Shown piece by piece: positions 11,964-36,194 of a stretch of 64,000 nucleotides of DNA. The position numbers and the translations under genes were made by a program. Positions within the stretch are counted from its first letter, which is position 1; each line of letters opens with the position of its first letter. The notes under the pieces were generated by a model. That model worked only from the letters and a program-made list of their open reading frames with translations, ran no database searches and was not told the DNA's origin. The stretch covers positions 62,001 to 126,000 of the forward strand of contig JAGYKR010000006.1 in NCBI GenBank assembly GCA_018401375.1, in the 5' to 3' direction. Source of the stretch: Ilumatobacteraceae bacterium. Lineage in GTDB: Bacteria; Actinomycetota; Acidimicrobiia; Acidimicrobiales; Ilumatobacteraceae.

Positions 11964-12617
11964 ATGGGGACACAGCGCGTTCTTGCGAGGATCACCGTGG
12001 CTGCAGTGCTGCTCGGACTTGGGGCCTGCGCAACAGGTGATGGCAAAACGTTGCAGCCACCAACTGCGCCGGCCCCTACCTCTTCTTCGCCACAGAGTTC
12101 AGCGCCTGGTGACCCGACTGATGATGTCGGCACAGCTGCTCCCGAGCTTCCCGGTGAGGAGCCTGGCGCCTTTCAGATTGCGGTGCCCTGGGTGGCCGGC
12201 GGCGAGATGGGTCTGCGCTTTGGATGTGCCGGCGATGGGGTATCGCCCTCGGTGGCGTGGGAGTCAGTTCCTGACGGCACCTCCGAGATCGCCGTGGTCA
12301 TCTCCGATCAGGCGGGCCGGGTCCATTGGATGTTGCTGGGAATTGGCCCAACGGTGATCGCGATTCCCGAGGCAGTTAGCGCCGAAGGCCTCAACCGCCA
12401 AGGCGCGGAAGTGATCTCGAATGATTTCGGGGTGGCGGACTGGACGCCGCCATGTCCGGCCCCCGGAACATCAGAGTTGTTCTTGGTGACGGTTCACGCG
12501 CTCAGCCAACAGATTGAAGGGACCGCCTTGATGGGTCCCGCAGAGATCGCCGATCTGTTGGGGTTCGTGTCGATTGCCATCGCTGAGGTCACGGGCGTCT
12601 ACTCCCGGCCGGCCTGA
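11964..12617 (+). CDS. PEBP-family (YbhB/YbcL-like) lipoprotein
   Basis: From ATG 11964 the 217-aa protein has a lipoprotein signal peptide with lipobox LGLGAC at about residue 20, then a Pro/Ser/Thr-rich linker (residues ~30-70), then a phosphatidylethanolamine-binding-protein fold: GDGVSPSVAWESVPDGTSEI, HWMLLGIGP in place of the usual HWVL(Y/W) and a YDGPCPP-like element degraded to WTPPCPAPG. Bacterial PEBPs are of unclear function, some being kinase or protease modulators. It is exported and anchored to the outer face of the membrane. The start is 31 bp from the divergent mca start, so they share a promoter region. Confidence 0.82.
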   Translation: MGTQRVLARITVAAVLLGLGACATGDGKTLQPPTAPAPTSSSPQSSAPGDPTDDVGTAAPELPGEEPGAFQIAVPWVAGGEMGLRFGCAGDGVSPSVAWESVPDGTSEIAVVISDQAGRVHWMLLGIGPTVIAIPEAVSAEGLNRQGAEVISNDFGVADWTPPCPAPGTSELFLVTVHALSQQIEGTALMGPAEIADLLGFVSIAIAEVTGVYSRPA

Positions 12618-12641
12618 TGGCCATGGCGGTACCCTTCGAAC

Positions 12642-12986
12642 ATGGCCGTCGATGAACAGCACCAGGTACTCGACGTCGAAGTAGACCGGGCGCTTGAGGT
12701 CCGTATCGTCTTTGGAGACGAGGTGGCCGCGACCTTCCCGGTTCTCGATCTGCGTCGGGCCTGCCCTTGCGCCGGGTGTCGAGGCCAGCGCGACGCCGGC
12801 CGGGAGGCCTACCTCGGGGCCGAGATCACGATCACCGACGCTGAGCTCCACGGCAACTGGGGACTCTCTTTGGTGTGGAGTGACGGTCATTCCACCGGGA
12901 TCTACGCCTGGTCGTACCTGCGTTCACTGTGGGATGAACCTGGGGGAGATCCAGGGTCCGAGCTCGAGGTGGACCCACTTGTCTGA
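12642..12986 (+). CDS. DUF971 (GBBH-like N-terminal) domain protein
   Basis: This 114-aa protein consists of one DUF971 domain with a Cys-rich zinc motif in DLRRACPCAGCRGQ and the C-terminal signature WSDGHSTGIYAWSYLRSLW. In eukaryotic gamma-butyrobetaine hydroxylases this fold is the N-terminal zinc-binding domain. Bacterial stand-alone versions are often found near Fe-S cluster carrier or Mrp genes. No Mrp gene is visible here, so its role is undefined. It lies 24 bp downstream of the PEBP gene and 18 bp upstream of the rhomboid gene, in the same direction. Confidence 0.88.
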   Translation: MAVDEQHQVLDVEVDRALEVRIVFGDEVAATFPVLDLRRACPCAGCRGQRDAGREAYLGAEITITDAELHGNWGLSLVWSDGHSTGIYAWSYLRSLWDEPGGDPGSELEVDPLV

Positions 12987-13004
12987 GCCAATACCCTAAA
13001 GATC

Positions 13005-13934
13005 GTGTCGTTGCCGCCTCCGCCTCCATCGGGCCTACCCGTTGTGGGGTCTGGTGGCGCCGAGACCGCTTGTTATCGGCATCGTGACCGGATCACCGGA
13101 CGGCGTTGCACCCGGTGCGGGCGGCCCGCATGTGGGGACTGTTTGACTCAGGCTGCAGTCGGTTCAAACTGTCCCGAATGTGTCAAAGCAGCTCAACCCG
13201 ATGCCCGAACGAGGGCCAAGTTCTGGAATGCACGCCAACCGGTGCTGGTCACCAAGGTATTGATGGCGCTGAACCTGCTGGTGTTTGCCTGGGTAACAGC
13301 GCTCGATCCCTCAAGTCTCGCCTCGCGCGGGATCACCAGAGGTCAGGCGTATCTCGGATTGTCCGCCGACATCATCAATCCCGGGGTGGTATTTCGTTTT
13401 GCCGACAGCGTGTACCTCGCCGGACCCGGCGAGTGGTACCGGGTCCTGTCCTCAGGGTTCGTGCATTTCGGAGTGATTCATATTGCCTTCAACATGTACC
13501 TGCTGTACATGCTCGGCCAGATCCTTGAGCCTGCCATCGGAAGGCTGCGGTTCATTTTGGTCTACTTCTCCGCGCTACTCGCAGGTTCGGCGGGCGCAAT
13601 GGTGCTTCAACCTGACGGTTTCCACGGTGGGGCCTCTGGAGCGGTGTTTGGATTAATGGGGGCGGCCTTCGTGGGGTATCGGGTCCGCGGGATTAACCCG
13701 TTCGCCACCGGCATCGGAACCCTGCTGGTTCTGAACCTTTTCATCACTTTTGCGATACCGGGGATTTCCATCGGCGGGCACCTCGGCGGGGTGATCGCCG
13801 GAGCGATCAGCGCGTTGGTGGTCATGGCGCCCTCCCACAAGGCCTACCCAAAGTGGATGACCTACGCCACCCCAGCGGTGGTCGGACTCGTGAGCGTGGC
13901 GATCACCGTGCTTGCGATCAACGCCCGAATCTGA
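13005..13934 (+). CDS. Rhomboid intramembrane serine protease with N-terminal zinc finger
   Basis: The 309-aa protein has an N-terminal B-box-like zinc finger (CYRHRDRITGRRCTRCG through CPECVK, residues ~25-60), then a rhomboid core of six or seven membrane segments. Catalytic features are HIAFNMYLLYMLG (conserved His/Asn oxyanion helix), GGASGAVFGLMGA with the nucleophilic Ser, and the distal GGHLGGVIAG His of the dyad. It cleaves membrane-protein substrates within or near the bilayer. The zinc-finger plus rhomboid arrangement is common in actinobacteria. It converges with the ABC transporter operon, leaving only 6 bp between stops. Confidence 0.93.
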   Translation: MSLPPPPPSGLPVVGSGGAETACYRHRDRITGRRCTRCGRPACGDCLTQAAVGSNCPECVKAAQPDARTRAKFWNARQPVLVTKVLMALNLLVFAWVTALDPSSLASRGITRGQAYLGLSADIINPGVVFRFADSVYLAGPGEWYRVLSSGFVHFGVIHIAFNMYLLYMLGQILEPAIGRLRFILVYFSALLAGSAGAMVLQPDGFHGGASGAVFGLMGAAFVGYRVRGINPFATGIGTLLVLNLFITFAIPGISIGGHLGGVIAGAISALVVMAPSHKAYPKWMTYATPAVVGLVSVAITVLAINARI

Positions 13935-27178: not shown

Positions 27179-28273
27179 TCAGAGCAGAGCGAGGTCGTGG
27201 TCAGCATTATTGGCCGACAGCGGTCCACGCTCGGTGGCGATCACGATGTCTTCCAGACGCATTCCCCATCGGCCGGGAATATAAATCCCCGGCTCAATGC
27301 TAAACGCATGGCCGTGCTCGAGGAGGGTGGTATTTCCGGACACGATGTAGGGGTCCTCGTGGGCTTCCATCCCGATCCCATGGCCCGTGCGATGCACGAA
27401 ATACTCCCCGTACCCCGCCGCCGAAATAATGTCACGGGCCGCGGCGTCCACTGACTCACATGTTGCTCCTAATTGGGCGGCGGCCACCGCCGCGGCCTGG
27501 GCCTCTTTCAGCACGGCATAGGCGGAGTGAATCTCAGGGTCCACGTCTCCGGTGGTCACACAACGAGTGATGTCGCTGCAATAACCAGCCATGGTCCCAC
27601 CAAAGTCACAGAGCACAATCTCGTTCGGGCCAATCACCCGTGGGCCGGGATGATGATGCGGGCTCGCCGCATTCTCACCTGCGGCCACAATCGCGAAGTT
27701 CACCACTTCATGGCCTTCAGCGAGAATCCGTGCCGACAGGTCAGCAGAAACCTCGGCCTCGGTCCGCCCGATCAAAGGAATCTGCCCCGATTGGAGCTGT
27801 GTGGCGATCCGATCAACAGCGGCCCCCGCCGCCTGCAAGGCAGCGATTTCAGCGGCATCTTTTTGCAAACGGAGCGATCCGACTACACCGTTGGCCCGCA
27901 CATAGGTGGCCCCCGGCAGGTGCGGCAATAACTCCACGAGGAACCGGGACCACATCTGATCCCCGACTGCAATCCGGCGCCGATCTCCGATCACCTTCGC
28001 AGCGAGCGCAACGGGATCTTCGGTCTCGGTCCATGGCAGCAAAGTGAAAACATCCGGCAGAGGATCCACCCGTGGTGCCTCTAAGGCAGGAATCAGCAGC
28101 GTGGCATGCTCACCACGGGGGATGACGAGCAAGGTGAGCCGCTCGAGGGGCATCGCCTCATATCCGGTCAAAAACGGCAGGTCACGTCCCACGGAAAGGA
28201 TCACCGCCTCCACATCGGCCACCGCCATCGCAGCACGGACACGGTCAACTCGGGAGCGATAGATCGAGGTCAC
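27179..28273 (-). CDS. M24-family metallopeptidase (Xaa-Pro aminopeptidase-like)
   Basis: A 364-aa pita-bread-fold peptidase. The N-terminal creatinase-like domain (residues 1-~130) is followed by the catalytic domain with all five metal ligands: Asp in VLCDFGGTMAG, Asp in CSDITRC, His in HRTGHGIGMEAHED, Glu in FSIEPGIYI, and Glu in MRLEDIVI. It removes N-terminal residues before proline or acts on related dipeptides. The ATG overlaps the lipB-lipA stop by 4 bp, so it is cotranscribed with the lipoylation genes, although there is no known functional link. The amidohydrolase that follows may be a partner in dipeptide/D-amino acid turnover. Confidence 0.9.
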   Translation of the reverse strand: MTSIYRSRVDRVRAAMAVADVEAVILSVGRDLPFLTGYEAMPLERLTLLVIPRGEHATLLIPALEAPRVDPLPDVFTLLPWTETEDPVALAAKVIGDRRRIAVGDQMWSRFLVELLPHLPGATYVRANGVVGSLRLQKDAAEIAALQAAGAAVDRIATQLQSGQIPLIGRTEAEVSADLSARILAEGHEVVNFAIVAAGENAASPHHHPGPRVIGPNEIVLCDFGGTMAGYCSDITRCVTTGDVDPEIHSAYAVLKEAQAAAVAAAQLGATCESVDAAARDIISAAGYGEYFVHRTGHGIGMEAHEDPYIVSGNTTLLEHGHAFSIEPGIYIPGRWGMRLEDIVIATERGPLSANNADHDLALL

Positions 28274-29958
28274 CCAATAAGTGTGCCACCCGTGCGCACC
28301 GGTTGCTGTACCGATACCGACACCTGGGCAGCGGCCCGACCGGCGTGATAGCTGCTGCGAGTCAACGGGCTCGCCTCGACATGATCAATTCCGAGCGACT
28401 CACCGATCTGCTTCCAACGGGTGAACTCATCGGGCTCCACCCAACGAGCCACGGGCACGTGATGGGAGGTAGGACGCAGATACTGCCCGAGGGTCACGAT
28501 CCGCACCCCGATCGCAGCGAGGTCAGCGAGACAGCCTTCAATCTCTGCGTCTGTTTCCCCGAGGCCGAGCATCAACGAGGACTTCGTGATCAATCCCGCA
28601 GCACCAGCTCGTGCGAGCAGTCCAAGGCTGCGCGCGTATCCGGCCGAGGGACGGACCGCACGCTGCAATCGGGCCACCGTCTCAATGTTGTGGTTGAGCA
28701 CATCGGGGCGCTCATGAAGCAGGATCGCAAGCGCATCGGCATCGCCGCGCACGTCGGAGATCAAGGTTTCTACTTTGGTCCCTGGGCACCGCTGCCTGAT
28801 CGCAATCACGCAGGCCGCCATATGTGTCATGCCCCCATCAGGTAAATCATCGCGGGCCACCATGGTCAGCACCGCATGGTCCAGCCCCATCTGGGCTACG
28901 GCTTCTGCAACACGGGCGGGTTCATCGGCAGCCGGGGCGAGTGGGTGCCGGGTGTCCACGAGGCAAAACCCACAAGCCCGGGTACAGCGATCGCCGAGCA
29001 CCATGAACGTAGCGGTGCCCTCGGACCAGCATTCAGAAAGATTCGGACATCCGGCGTCCTCGCAGACCGTGACCAAATCCAGTTCTCGCAGGGTGCGGCG
29101 CAGGGCGAGCACCTCGGGACCGTGAGACACTTTGGGTCGTAGCCAGTCTGGTTTGCGTTCGGAAATCTCAAGACCTTCGACAACTCCGGCTGCTGCGAGG
29201 CGTCCCCGCAGGCGCACCGGTTCACCGGGGCCTTCGCCACGGGAAAACGCACTCAAGTCATCGGGACGATGGCGCCATTGCACATCTTGGCGTTCGTGGC
29301 CAGCATCGCCTGACCAAGCCCGAGCGGCCACCTCCACGAGGGTGTCCACCACAACGCGCATCTCCACCTTGGGCGCATCGATCCGATCAAGCTCTTCGGC
29401 GATGGAGGTCACCGGACGATCTGCAATCCCGCAGGGGACGATATGAGAGCGCATGAACTCCATATCGGTGGCGAGGTTGAGGGCGAACCCGTGCATGCTG
29501 CGCCCGTTGGCCACCCTGACCCCGATCGCTGCAATCTTGCGGGGAGCGGGGCCTCCTGCATCCATCCACACACCCGGGTATTCCTTCAGACGGCCGGCGT
29601 TTGGGAGACCGAGAGCAGTCAGGGTGTCGATGATCACCTGCTCCACTCGACACACGTGGTCCACCGATCGGTAGCGACCGGGTAGATCCAAGATCGGATA
29701 GCCGACGAGTTGTCCGGGGCCGTGATAGGTGATGTCTCCACCGCGATCCACTGCGATCAGTTCGGCTCCTACTTGGGCTGGGTCGCAAAGGAGGTTCGTA
29801 GAGAGGTCAGCCGTCCGACCGTAGGTAAACACGTGAGGATGTTCGAGTAACAACAGGTGCTGTTGGCCACGATCGGCCACCAGACCTCGTTGCAGTGCAA
29901 GCGACTCCGCATACGGCACCGATCCGAGCCACCGGATCCGCAGCGGAGCACTCGTCAT
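28270..29958 (-). CDS. lipB-lipA: Octanoyltransferase-lipoyl synthase fusion (LipB-LipA)
   Basis: One open frame of 562 codons encodes two enzymes of lipoate synthesis. Residues 1-~220 are LipB, moving octanoyl from ACP to lipoyl domains: AVDRGGDITYHGPGQLVGYP, the catalytic Lys in PRKIAAIGVR, and the acyl-carrying Cys in IVPCGI. Residues ~245-562 are LipA, the radical-SAM sulfur-inserting enzyme: auxiliary-cluster motif VCEDAGCPNLSECW (Cx4Cx5C), radical-SAM CTRACGFC (Cx3Cx2C), and LMLGLGETDAEIEGCLADLA. Both domains keep every catalytic residue, with a short RLRGRLAAAGVVEG linker. The frame is free of frameshift signs. It overlaps the E2 gene stop by 4 bp, placing lipoylation beside the lipoyl-domain substrate. 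Confidence 0.93.
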   Translation of the reverse strand: MTSAPLRIRWLGSVPYAESLALQRGLVADRGQQHLLLLEHPHVFTYGRTADLSTNLLCDPAQVGAELIAVDRGGDITYHGPGQLVGYPILDLPGRYRSVDHVCRVEQVIIDTLTALGLPNAGRLKEYPGVWMDAGGPAPRKIAAIGVRVANGRSMHGFALNLATDMEFMRSHIVPCGIADRPVTSIAEELDRIDAPKVEMRVVVDTLVEVAARAWSGDAGHERQDVQWRHRPDDLSAFSRGEGPGEPVRLRGRLAAAGVVEGLEISERKPDWLRPKVSHGPEVLALRRTLRELDLVTVCEDAGCPNLSECWSEGTATFMVLGDRCTRACGFCLVDTRHPLAPAADEPARVAEAVAQMGLDHAVLTMVARDDLPDGGMTHMAACVIAIRQRCPGTKVETLISDVRGDADALAILLHERPDVLNHNIETVARLQRAVRPSAGYARSLGLLARAGAAGLITKSSLMLGLGETDAEIEGCLADLAAIGVRIVTLGQYLRPTSHHVPVARWVEPDEFTRWKQIGESLGIDHVEASPLTRSSYHAGRAAAQVSVSVQQPVRTGGTLIG

Positions 29959-31341
29959 AGCTCGCTCGACCAGTCGCGGGTTTCGAGGATCTCTTTGACC
30001 CGGCGTAAGAACCCCGCCGCGTAGGCCCCATCAATCGCCCGGTGGTCCCAACTCATTGCCAGATTTCCGACCGGATGAATCGCAATCGCTTCATCGCCTT
30101 CAGCAGAGGTAACCACCACTGGTTTGCGCACGATTGCATCGGTGGAGATGATCGCGACCTGAGGCTGATTGATGATCGCCATGGTGAGCACTGATCCGGC
30201 CGAGCCGTTATTAGAAATGGTGAACGTCCCACCTTGGATCTCGTCGGGGCTGAGGCGACGCCCACGGGCCCGATCAGCAAGGTCGTGGATTTCCGAAGCG
30301 ATCGCCCGGAGACGCTTGGTTTCAGCGGAACGGATCACGGGAGCCAAAAGACCCTCGTAGTCGAGGTCCACGGCGATCCCCAGATCGATGTAGTTGTGCA
30401 CGATCACTGATCGGCATCAACCGATGCGTTCAGATGAGGGAACTCGCGGAGGCCGTCGATAATCGCCGCGAGATAAACGGCAGGTAGGTGAGGCTGAAAC
30501 CTTCGGAACTTTCCATTCCGCCTTGGCTGCATCACGGACGCGGATCCACGTTCCTGCGCAATCCACCTCCACCACGCTGAGGGCGTGGGGGCTCGTAGCC
30601 TTCGAGGCCACCATGTGCTCACCCGTCAGGCGACGGATCTTGGACAACTTGATGCTCTGGATCACGTGACCCACTGGCCACGGGCGCCGGCGCCGGACGC
30701 GCCGGAGCAGGAGCGGCTTGGGGCGCTGGGGCAGGAGCAGTGCAGGCGCCGGAGCAGGGGCGCTGGCGCCGGCGTCGATGCGGCGCAGCACATCATCACG
30801 AGTGATCCGACCACCGGCCCCAGTCCCGGTGATGGATGCCGGGTCAAGACCGTTATCGCGGATCAGGCGGCGAACCACCGGAGACAACAGGCCCGGGGTG
30901 GAACTGAGGTCCGCATCAGAGGCCGCCGGTGTTGGGGAGGCGGCGGGTGCCGGCTGGGGCTGGCTCCGGGCGCCGGGGCTGGTTCGGTTCGGGCGCCGGG
31001 GCTGGTTCCGGGCTGGGGCTGGTTCGGGCGGGGCTGGGGCGGGCTCTGGGCTGGGGTCGGGGCGGCGGCCGGCGCTGGGGGCGGCAGCGGGGGCCCACGA
31101 ATCCAGAGACACTAGCGCCCGCAGCGATCACGGTGCCCACATCCACGGTGTCACCTTCTGCCACCCGGATCTCCAGCAGGGTGCCGGAGACCGGGGAGGG
31201 AACCTCGGTGTCCACCTTGTCGGTGGAGACCTCAAACAGTGCCTCATCAGCAGTGACGGTGTCACCTACCTGCTTGAAGAACTGGGTGATGGTGCCCTCG
31301 GTGACCGTTTCACCGAGTTGGGGAAGAATGACCTCAGCCAT
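29955..31341 (-). CDS. 2-oxoacid dehydrogenase E2 acyltransferase (lipoyl-PSBD-catalytic), frameshifted
   Basis: The E2 component carries acyl groups on a lipoyl arm. From ATG 31341 there is a lipoyl domain (MAEVILPQLGETVTEGTITQ; lipoyl Lys in EVSTDKVDTEVPS), an Ala/Pro-rich linker, a peripheral subunit-binding domain (LSPVVRRLIRDNGLDPASIT), then the catalytic domain (KLSKIRRLTGEHMVASKATS), ending SWDHRAIDGAYAAGFLRRV with the DHRxxDG catalytic His. The parts lie in three frames. Breaks are near 31080-31110 (in the repetitive linker), near 30470-30530, and at 30404-30410, where one missing G would restore DQVIVHNYIDLGIAVD. With lpd upstream and AceE at 43-46 kb, it is likely the PDH/2-oxoglutarate dehydrogenase E2. 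Indel errors are the simplest explanation. Confidence 0.82.
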
Positions 31342-33363: not shown

Positions 33364-33978
33364 GTGCCCAACGAGCAAGTCCTAGGTCTTAGGCCACGAG
33401 TTTCCCGGCTTGTGCTGGCGCTTGGTCTAACGGTCGGCTCCGGGCTTGCGGCCGCAGGATGCCTCACCACGACCGAACCTGATGCTCAAGGCGTGGCTTC
33501 GTCGATAACGCCCTCGACGAATGTTGTGCCCAGCGACTTAGGTGGTCTTTCGGCGACCGCCGAAGCGAGGCCGGTGAATCTGGTGGGAGGCGGACAACTC
33601 GATCTTGCGGCCTACATGGATAAGCCGCTCTTGTTGTGGTTTTGGGCGCCGTTTTGAGGCGTTTGCAATCGTGAAGCCGCTTCGGTCGAGGCGGCAAGCC
33701 AACGCTGGGGAGACCAGATCCACCTGATCGGGGTGGCCTGGTCAGGGACCTCTGCTAACTACGAGTCCTTTGTGGCTCGCCATGGCGTGACGTTCCCAAA
33801 TATTGACGACACCGCCGGTGCGATCTACGCCGATCTCGGGATTCCCGGCAACCCGGCATTCGGGGTGGTGCACACCGATCAAACCTATGAGATCGTGATG
33901 GGCGCAGTTCCCGATGACACGCTCGACATGATCATCGGTGCAATGGTCGAACGTGTCGCATCAACGAGCGCTGAATGA
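33364..33978 (+). CDS. Thioredoxin-like (TlpA/AhpC-TSA type) lipoprotein with in-frame UGA, candidate selenoprotein
   Basis: GTG 33364 starts a 204-residue frame with an actinobacterial signal peptide and lipobox-like AAAGC around residue 37. At residue 98 the codon TGA (33655-33657) sits where the first Cys of a thioredoxin CxxC should be: LLWFWAPF-UGA-GVCNREAAS, so the active site reads UGVC. The same frame then runs without a break through WGDQIHLIGVAWSGTSANYE, VTFPNIDDTAGAIYADLGIP (cis-Pro in GNPAF) and stops at TGA 33976. Downstream features are at full strength for a TlpA-like domain. A hairpin 18 nt after the TGA resembles a bacterial SECIS. It is predicted to be an exported, membrane-anchored thiol/selenol oxidoreductase. 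Alternatives are a nonsense mutation or base-call error, which do not explain the hairpin. Confidence 0.8.
33676..33695 (+). promoter_or_regulatory. Candidate bacterial SECIS hairpin (GGUC loop)
   Basis: GCCGCTTC (33676-33683) pairs fully with GAGGCGGC (33688-33695), counting one U-G wobble, leaving a four-base loop GGTC (33684-33687). In E. coli fdhF the SelB-binding SECIS presents a GGUC-type loop on a short stem a similar distance after the UGA. Here 26 nt lie between the UGA and the loop, within the bacterial range. The stem lies inside the open reading frame, as required, and is preserved while the surrounding codons still make sense. Confidence 0.7.
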
Positions 33979-34012
33979 GCAGTCATAGTCGCTAGCACCT
34001 AGCGTGGGCTCT

Positions 34013-34902
34013 ATGCGCATTGCAATCACCGGATCCACCGGCCTCATTGGCACGGCCCTCATCGCTCACTTGACGGCCCTCGGCCACACACCGGTACCGG
34101 TGGTGCGGCGGCCCGCCACCGGCAATGAAATCTCTTGGGATCCTGCTGCTGGGCGCCTTAATCCGGCTGATCTCAACGGGGTGGATGCTGTCGTGCATCT
34201 CGCCGGGGCAGGCATTGGCGACAAGCGCTGGACGCCCGCATACAAAAAGGTGTTACTTGAGAGCCGCACCCGCAGCACCAACCTGCTCTCCGAAGCGATC
34301 GCCGCCTCAGAAGAACGACCCAAGGTGCTGTTATCGGGCTCGGCCATTGGTATTTACGGAGCCCACGAATCACAGGCCTTCACCGAGGATTCACCATCTG
34401 GGACAGGTTTTCTCGCCGATATCTGCGTGGACTGGGAGACCAGCACCAAGATGGCCGAGGCCGCTGGGGTCAGAGTCGCTCATTTGCGTACCGGCATCGT
34501 GTTGTCCCCTGAGGGCGGTGCGCTGAAGAAGCAACTGCCGCTGTTTAAGCTCGGCCTTGGTGGGCGTTTCGGTAACGGCCGCCAATGGCAGTCGTGGATC
34601 TCGATCACCGATGAGGTGGCGGCGATCACTCACCTTTTGACCTCTGATCTGGAGGGCCCGGTAAACCTGACCGCGCCAAACCCGGTCACTAATGCCGAGT
34701 TCACTTCCACCTTAGCCAAGGTGCTCAAACGCCCGGCCTTGTTACCGATCCCGTCTTTGGACCCACATTGCTCGGCTCCGAACTGGCACACAACTTGTTA
34801 TTCACCGGCCAAAAGGTTGTTCCGGCCCGCCTCCAAACAGACGGCTTCACCTTCGCTCACTCCGATCTCGAATCGGCCCTTCGGGCCCTGTTGAACAAGT
34901 AG
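34013..34902 (+). CDS. TIGR01777-family NAD(P)-binding epimerase/SDR-like protein, 1-nt frameshift near C-terminus
   Basis: This extended-SDR protein (MRIAITGSTGLIGTALIAHL, start ATG 34013) belongs to the TIGR01777 group: VVHLAGAGIGDKRWTPAYKK, SAIGIYG with the catalytic Tyr, RTGIVLSPEGGALKKQLPLF. After PALLPIPS the frame switches: residues GSELAHNLLFTGQKVVPARL and SDLESALRALLNK lie one frame over and end at TAG 34900. One extra T in the TTT run at about 34755 restores a single frame of ~296 aa with PSFGPTLLGSEL. Uncorrected, the open frame stops at 34894. The indel at a homopolymer is probably a sequencing error. The function of the family is unproven. Confidence 0.85.
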
Positions 34903-34913
34903 TCCCACCTCAC

Positions 34914-36194
34914 ATGAGAGAACCTGTCCTGATCGTCGGTGCCGGACTTGCCGGATTGTGCTGCGCGCTAGATCTCACGGCCGCCGGGGTGCCGGTGCGC
35001 ATCATCGAGGCCTCCGATGCAGTGGGAGGCCGGGTTCGTACCGACGTGGTGGACGGCTTCTTAGTGGACCGCGGCTTTCAGGTACTCCTGACCGCCTACC
35101 CCGAACTCCGGCGACGTTGTGATCTCGACGCCCTCGAACTTCGACCCTTCGCGCCAGGAGCGATGGTCTGGCACGAAGGCTCCGGACACGTGGTGTCTGA
35201 CCCCTTGCGTGATCCCCGGCAGTTGTGGTCCACCATCACAGCTCCGATCGGCTCGATTTTTGATAAGGCGCGGATTGGTCTGCTGCGCCATCGGGTCCGC
35301 AGCCAGCATCCGGTGGAACTCCTTCGGGGTCCAGAGATGAGCACCGCTGACGCTCTGCGGGGTGCCGGATTTTCTGAAACCATCATTCAACGGTTCTTTC
35401 GGCCACTCGTCGGGGGCATCCAACTCGATCCTGATCTGAGCGCCTCGCGGAGAAGTTTCGACATGATCTTTCGGATGCTGGCTGATGGGGAAGCGGCCGT
35501 CCCGGCTGCGGGCATGGGTGCGCTACCCGCCCAGTTAGCCCGGGCCCTACCCGAGGGCAGCATTGAACTTTCGATCCCGGTCACATCGGTATCCCCCGGG
35601 CAAGTGACGGTGCCGGGACCTGCCGGCCGCACCCTCAAACTGAAGGCTCGCGCAGTGGTTGTGGCCACCGAAGGCCCCGTGGCTGCAGACCTTTTGTCCC
35701 TCCCCACTGTGGGCTCACGCAGTGTGGGTAGCGTCTGGTTTGCGGCGCCGTCCGCACCCAGTGATGACCGCTACATCATCTTGGACGGGTCTGGGCGCGG
35801 CCCAGCGTTAAACGTGGCGGTGATGAGTGCTGTCGCCCCCTCCTATGCGCCCGTTGGCCAACACCTGATTGCAGCAGCCACCCCGGGAGTGGTTTCAGCC
35901 ACCCTCGAACAGGATGTGCGTGCTCAGTTGCGCGGTTGGTGGGGTTCCCAAGTGGATCGTTGGGAGGTGGTGGCCAGCCATCGCATCGCCCACGGTCAGC
36001 CCCGACTCGGGCCACCACTGCATCCGGTCCAAAATCAGAAAGTGGCAGAGGGGCTCTTCGTCTGCGGAGACCATCGTGACACCGCCTCGATTCAAGGAGC
36101 GATGTATTCGGGGCGACGAGCCGCAGCTCAGGTCCTCACATCCCTCGGGGTCACTGGCCAGACAGCGTCGACATTAGAAAGTGAACCGTCATGA
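34914..36194 (+). CDS. FAD-dependent amine-oxidase/protoporphyrinogen-oxidase-like oxidoreductase
   Basis: A 426-aa flavoprotein with an N-terminal dinucleotide-binding motif (VLIVGAGLAGLCCALDLTAA), the RhlE-type VGGRVRTDVVDGFLVDRGFQ, and the C-terminal FAD-contact segment LFVCGDHRDTASIQGAMYSG. This combination is seen in amine oxidases, phytoene-desaturase-like proteins and protoporphyrinogen oxidase. The specific substrate cannot be told. It starts 11 bp after the TIGR01777 gene and overlaps the following SRPBCC gene by 4 bp, so the three probably form one operon, the context in which unknown SDR-like epimerases and oxidoreductases act in small-molecule metabolism. Confidence 0.85.
   Translation: MREPVLIVGAGLAGLCCALDLTAAGVPVRIIEASDAVGGRVRTDVVDGFLVDRGFQVLLTAYPELRRRCDLDALELRPFAPGAMVWHEGSGHVVSDPLRDPRQLWSTITAPIGSIFDKARIGLLRHRVRSQHPVELLRGPEMSTADALRGAGFSETIIQRFFRPLVGGIQLDPDLSASRRSFDMIFRMLADGEAAVPAAGMGALPAQLARALPEGSIELSIPVTSVSPGQVTVPGPAGRTLKLKARAVVVATEGPVAADLLSLPTVGSRSVGSVWFAAPSAPSDDRYIILDGSGRGPALNVAVMSAVAPSYAPVGQHLIAAATPGVVSATLEQDVRAQLRGWWGSQVDRWEVVASHRIAHGQPRLGPPLHPVQNQKVAEGLFVCGDHRDTASIQGAMYSGRRAAAQVLTSLGVTGQTASTLESEPS

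Follow-up and report, generated by a model that had tools for sequence, protein, structure and literature searches.

Comparative evidence for a selenocysteine form of a DsbF/DsbE-like lipoprotein in the Ilumatobacteraceae

The window, by which we mean the whole stretch of 64,000 nucleotides analysed here, carries on its plus strand (33364..33978) a gene whose translation, profile matches and fold point to a DsbF/DsbE-like lipoprotein of 204 residues, very probably with selenocysteine (Sec) at residue 98. The first-pass annotation had described a frame that starts at GTG 33364, crosses a TGA and runs on into a complete thioredoxin-like domain. Translation and Pfam matches bear this out. With TGA read as U, 33364-33978 gives 205 positions, where U occurs only at residue 98 and at the terminal stop (TGA, 33976-33978), and neither TAA nor TAG is present. 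With Cys placed at the TGA, Pfam matches are obtained to AhpC-TSA (1.3e-9), Redoxin (3.1e-8) and Thioredoxin (1.5e-6), and all three span the TGA. The active-site motif reads WFWAPF-U-GVC. As had likewise been claimed, the translation places the TGA (33655..33657, plus strand) at the first Cys of WAPFCxxC, while the second Cys is retained as the resolving Cys of a UGVC motif (TGC, 33664..33666, plus strand), which is invariant (C49) in our homologue alignment A1. The N-terminus RPRVSRLVLALGLTVGSGLAAAGC, residues 1-33 (LTVGSGLAAAGC-33), looks like a lipoprotein signal peptide (33364..33462, plus strand) with the lipobox AAGC, the codon of Cys33 occupying 33460-33462. In the open-frame scan of the window, many TGA codons separate two open stretches, as adjacent genes would give; the TGA at 33655 is the only one that, judged by eye, splits a recognised single domain. 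A standard annotation would truncate the gene at the UGA or give two short ORFs.

The region 33541..33975 (plus strand), which contains the TlpA/DsbE-like thioredoxin domain, was modelled by AlphaFold with 32 Cys homologues, the Sec position being modelled as Cys. The model (pLDDT 90.8, pTM 0.87) has a thioredoxin fold in which the Sec position opens a long helix. By profile, the closest PDB matches are DsbF (3ios, 3.8e-41) and DsbE (1lu4, 1.7e-38), and the same two entries are closest by fold according to Foldseek (TM about 0.83, with an identity of 26-29% in the structural alignment). Both are proteins of M. tuberculosis, DsbF (Rv1677) and DsbE/MPT53 (Rv2878c), with which the window protein shares the thioredoxin domain and, as its sequence suggests, the extracytoplasmic setting. 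It differs from them in that the first active-site Cys is predicted to be selenocysteine. Relatedness to the DsbF/DsbE (MPT53) group is thus found in thioredoxin fold, sequence and structure; since UGVC replaces the CxxC of that group, we treat the protein as a Sec-containing relative of the group, not as a plain member. ResA/TlpA and CcmG have the same fold (TM about 0.8 for ResA). The best NCBIfam model is in fact ResA (NF002854), but its score of 37.3 bits, where 170 are required, does not place the protein in this family; in a further difference from ResA/CcmG, the immediate neighbours that were examined include no recognisable cytochrome c maturation gene.

Homologues were searched in 61 related genomes, including the window's own, with the TGA of the query read as Cys. 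A match was obtained in 55 of these, and the 30 best loci, the window's own among them, were retrieved. A lipobox-like motif comparable to that of the window is present in 28 of the 30. The homologous codon is TGA in 28 loci (the window and 27 others) and Cys in two (L047 and L051), so that the in-frame UGA falls on a position where homologues have a redox Cys; the tree described below holds 21 Cys rows. Invariant positions of alignment A1 are W-F-W, P, U/C, the resolving C, E, and a Pro at the cis-Pro position. The alignment of homologues proposed in the first-pass annotation therefore shows TGA at a single position, or Cys in its place, and provides the expected Cys/Sec pairs. Stop codons scattered elsewhere in the gene, which had been named as a sign against selenocysteine, do not occur: among the homologues read, the domain is interrupted elsewhere only in the divergent UxxC homologue L172 (G015:C79:12000-14200), where a TAG soon after the active site probably marks a decayed copy. 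Although third positions are GC-rich, 25 of the 28 Sec loci have T immediately before the UGA, a context that may make termination less likely.

With respect to its distribution, the TGA gene is present in 24 of the 36 other genomes of the window's family that were searched, which contradicts the earlier assumption of an unusual type for this lineage. Among 247 genomes drawn class-wide, matches with E<=1e-22 were obtained only in the window's own family; G047, which belongs to another family of the same order, had matched at 1.1e-35 in the first homologue search. A contig scan with alignment A1, whose pattern held a Cys codon, matched mainly or only Cys homologues, mostly from Streptomyces, Nocardiopsis, Jiangella and Mycobacteriaceae, and was used as the Cys set, not to name Sec carriers.

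The gene order around the locus is partly shared. In about 17 homologue loci, a dihydrolipoamide dehydrogenase gene lies just upstream on the opposite strand according to the neighbour clusters, and in 11 loci an epimerase-like gene follows downstream; the window shows this same order, with dihydrolipoamide dehydrogenase upstream and the epimerase-like gene downstream. Compared to its relatives, the epimerase gene (34004-34920, plus strand) shifts frame near 34800 in its C-terminal part, likely by an indel. A 2-oxoacid dehydrogenase E2 (29955-31341, minus strand) is spread over at least three ORFs with the lipoyl, E3-binding and catalytic parts via apparent frameshifts, apparently due to assembly indels or a damaged gene. 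Next to it, a single ORF (28270-29958, minus strand) holds the catalytic domain of a LipB/LplA lipoyl ligase, with a lipoyl synthase (radical SAM) domain after it, and is an apparent LipB-LipA fusion.

Downstream of the UGA, the window contains a predicted bSECIS hairpin, GCCGCUUC-GGUC-GAGGCGGC (33676..33695, plus strand), to which covariation, synonymous-site conservation and folding all point. It has a perfect 8-bp stem, and its GGUC loop (33684-33687) starts 26 nt after the UGA with GG in front. This is in good agreement with the published bSECIS model, which demands a distance of 16-37 nt from the UGA and GG as the first two loop positions (PMC13188914). The hairpin is common to the 28 TGA loci (columns 22-41 of the alignment, where column 1 is the T of UGA), with GCC-n-CCUC-GGUC-GAGG-n-GGC as the majority form. 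Standard pairs occur in 94.9% of the hairpin cells, both partners are changed in 10 cells, and compensatory change is seen at three pairs. None of 500 shuffles attained the observed pairing or covariation score, and sliding the partner strand abolishes pairing. The synonymous codons are frozen at the hairpin, i.e., Ser TCG in 27 of 27 (P 2e-14), Val GTC in 28 of 28 (7e-11) and Ala GCA in 18 of 24 cases (1e-10), with little such freezing outside the hairpin codons. Of the Cys homologues read, neither L047, L051 and L158 nor the Cys member of the tandem pair in L176 has the GGUC hairpin sequence. A point against Sec decoding is that the hairpin, tested on the window sequence by itself, does not reach significance (z -1.74), and a stem just as long arises in 12.5% of synonymous recodings of the window (P 0.125). 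As these single-sequence statistics are weak, the support for the hairpin is comparative, and we put no weight on the single-sequence figures.

The tree groups 27 Sec rows and a single Cys row nested among them in one clade (support 100/99). The nested row is a tandem copy in G015, sister to the Sec copy of the same genome (99/82). Both copies lie at L176 (G015:C154:59500-62800), and the Cys copy, inside the Sec clade and without hairpin, may be read from its sequence as a Sec-to-Cys change with hairpin loss. The pair offers a natural comparison of what Sec adds, and of bSECIS loss after reversion to Cys. A second, divergent UxxC clade, in which all members have TGA, was observed in SelA-positive relatives (L159, L161, L162, L165, L166, L167, L170 and L171); its motif is mostly WAPH-U-xxC...VEQF. 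At L173 (G052:C1:39600-41900), each of the two strands carries a TlpA-like frame; Cys occurs in one of them (WCAPC), a possible Sec in the other (TWUPAC).

The TGA gene co-occurs with SelA in the related genomes. SelA scores above cut-off in 42 of the 60 other genomes. SelA is present in every one of the 27 other carriers of the TGA gene, and the gene is missing from all 18 SelA-negative genomes (P 1.1e-6). If six genomes that have other TGA homologues are counted as well, the comparison stands at 33 against 0 (P 5e-9); both P values overstate independence because the genomes share ancestry. Six SelA-negative genomes belong to the window's family, and these have no TGA homologue.

The window's genome is a bin of 2.23 Mb in 47 contigs and 90.3% complete. 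A search for selA, selB, selC and selD, as proposed in the first-pass annotation, succeeded for one half and failed for the other. A tRNA-Sec (C43:25756-25847, 66.8 bits, anticodon TCA) and SelD (C46:42330-43238, 318 bits) were found; SelA was not found in this assembly, nor was SelB, for which all matches to TIGR00475 are below cut-off. Judged by their length and sequence, the three best of these matches resemble IF-2, LepA and TypA and were rejected as SelB. The absence of SelA and SelB from the assembly is evidence against Sec decoding here. In relatives, selA-selB often adjoins a gene for an NfeD-like protease, with ArsA-like, asd and lysC farther out on the same side and, in several cases, NUDIX-Mrp on the opposite side. 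In the window's genome, Mrp-NUDIX lies on contig C9, which is unbroken there, and is followed by a CoA transferase, with selA absent at that spot; the block with selA must therefore have been rearranged, and this continuation into other genes also speaks against Sec decoding. Taken at face value, the selA-selB operon would truly be lost, and TGA would now be an ordinary stop in a recently orphaned gene that yields a truncated, useless peptide; genomes with an orphan SelD are documented (PMC5029168). However, lysC and asd were not found in this genome either, where only weak matches occurred (the lysC match looks like UMP kinase, the asd match is probably ArgC), and the NfeD-like gene was not found in a search that had no positive control alongside. 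That two housekeeping genes and the NfeD-like neighbour are missing along with selA and selB is what a gap in a 90%-complete bin predicts, and such a gap is the likely cause. Moreover, tRNA-Sec and SelD are intact, and the window gene keeps its open frame and its perfect 8-bp hairpin. We thus consider a true loss of the operon highly improbable.

A further point against Sec decoding is that two nearby genes, the E2 acyltransferase and the epimerase, look frameshifted, so that the consensus may contain indel errors. A true codon TGC or TGT, which would make the protein an ordinary Cys DsbF, would need a substitution at exactly 33655-33657, though. As 27 other genomes share this TGA, which there comes with a covarying hairpin that the Cys homologues are without, such an error is very unlikely, to a point where we hardly reckon with it. 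Equally far-fetched is the reading that this organism uses UGA for one of the standard amino acids, without any selenium. The frame is open through the TGA, as such a reassignment would require, but in the window TGA closes 30 of the 36 open stretches that reach 300 codons or more, and it also closes the gene itself. TGA as the main stop codon contradicts an alternative genetic code, and a tRNA-Sec with anticodon TCA is present. A pseudogene was rejected, since the frame is conserved in relatives. The original suggestion of a selenoprotein is thereby strongly supported by the conserved UGA, the covarying hairpin, tRNA-Sec, SelD and the co-occurrence with SelA in relatives. Judged from this comparative evidence, Sec is very probably incorporated, and with high confidence we consider UGA 33655 to be decoded as selenocysteine in a real selenoprotein, a probable thiol:disulfide oxidoreductase of the DsbF/DsbE (MPT53) group.

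Thioredoxin-fold selenoproteins with UxxC are known, as had been stated at the outset for marine metagenomes, where Trx-like 1 (COG0526) was found in the GOS data (PMC2398784). A 2026 review of the prokaryotic selenoproteome lists further UxxC entries, including a Prx-like thiol:disulfide oxidoreductase (PF00578), a thiol-disulfide isomerase-like protein (cd02966) and Redoxin (PF08534) (PMC13188914). Likened by their descriptions, not by sequences, Trx-like 1 and these other entries likewise have a thioredoxin fold in which Sec replaces the first Cys of CxxC. According to a term search, actinobacteria are not mentioned in the main text of the review (PMC13188914) or the GOS paper (PMC2398784). 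No NCBIfam selenoprotein model matched the window protein, and no title or abstract on such a family was found for Ilumatobacter selenoproteins or Acidimicrobiia selenocysteine in a literature search that leaves subscription journals mostly outside its coverage. The Sec form of a DsbF/DsbE lipoprotein, predicted to be exported, adds a well-supported selenoprotein family to the actinobacterial class Acidimicrobiia.

From a mechanistic point of view, the bSECIS hairpin just 3' of UGA 33655 would bring SelB and Sec-tRNA-Sec to the ribosome, so that the UGA is read as Sec. The protein would then presumably be exported, lipidated at Cys33 and anchored on the outer face of the membrane. Its fold and its DsbE/DsbF relatives suggest that Sec98 acts as the attacking nucleophile, that Cys101 resolves the selenenyl-sulfide, and that disulfides would be exchanged with extracytoplasmic proteins. 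For DsbF and DsbE of M. tuberculosis, oxidative folding of hirudin was reported, and DsbD or Rv2877c was proposed as their membrane partner (PMC3853704). The window protein may be an oxidant like DsbE/DsbF or a reductant fed by CcdA; only by analogy with its closest relatives is the oxidant favoured. A more far-reaching idea, which we hold to be rather doubtful, is that selenium serves part of the extracytoplasmic disulfide chemistry in this lineage of Acidimicrobiia, where exported Dsb-like lipoproteins with UxxC, from several families, would be the main oxidants or reductants of disulfides. If true, the family of the window protein and one or more others in relatives would fill the role of the Cys forms of DsbE/DsbF elsewhere in actinobacteria. 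On contig C9 of the window's own genome (L154, G000:C9:12316-13876), a gene for a CcdA-like membrane protein (12316-13206) adjoins a CxxC TlpA-like gene, and this pair is a candidate redox partner system.
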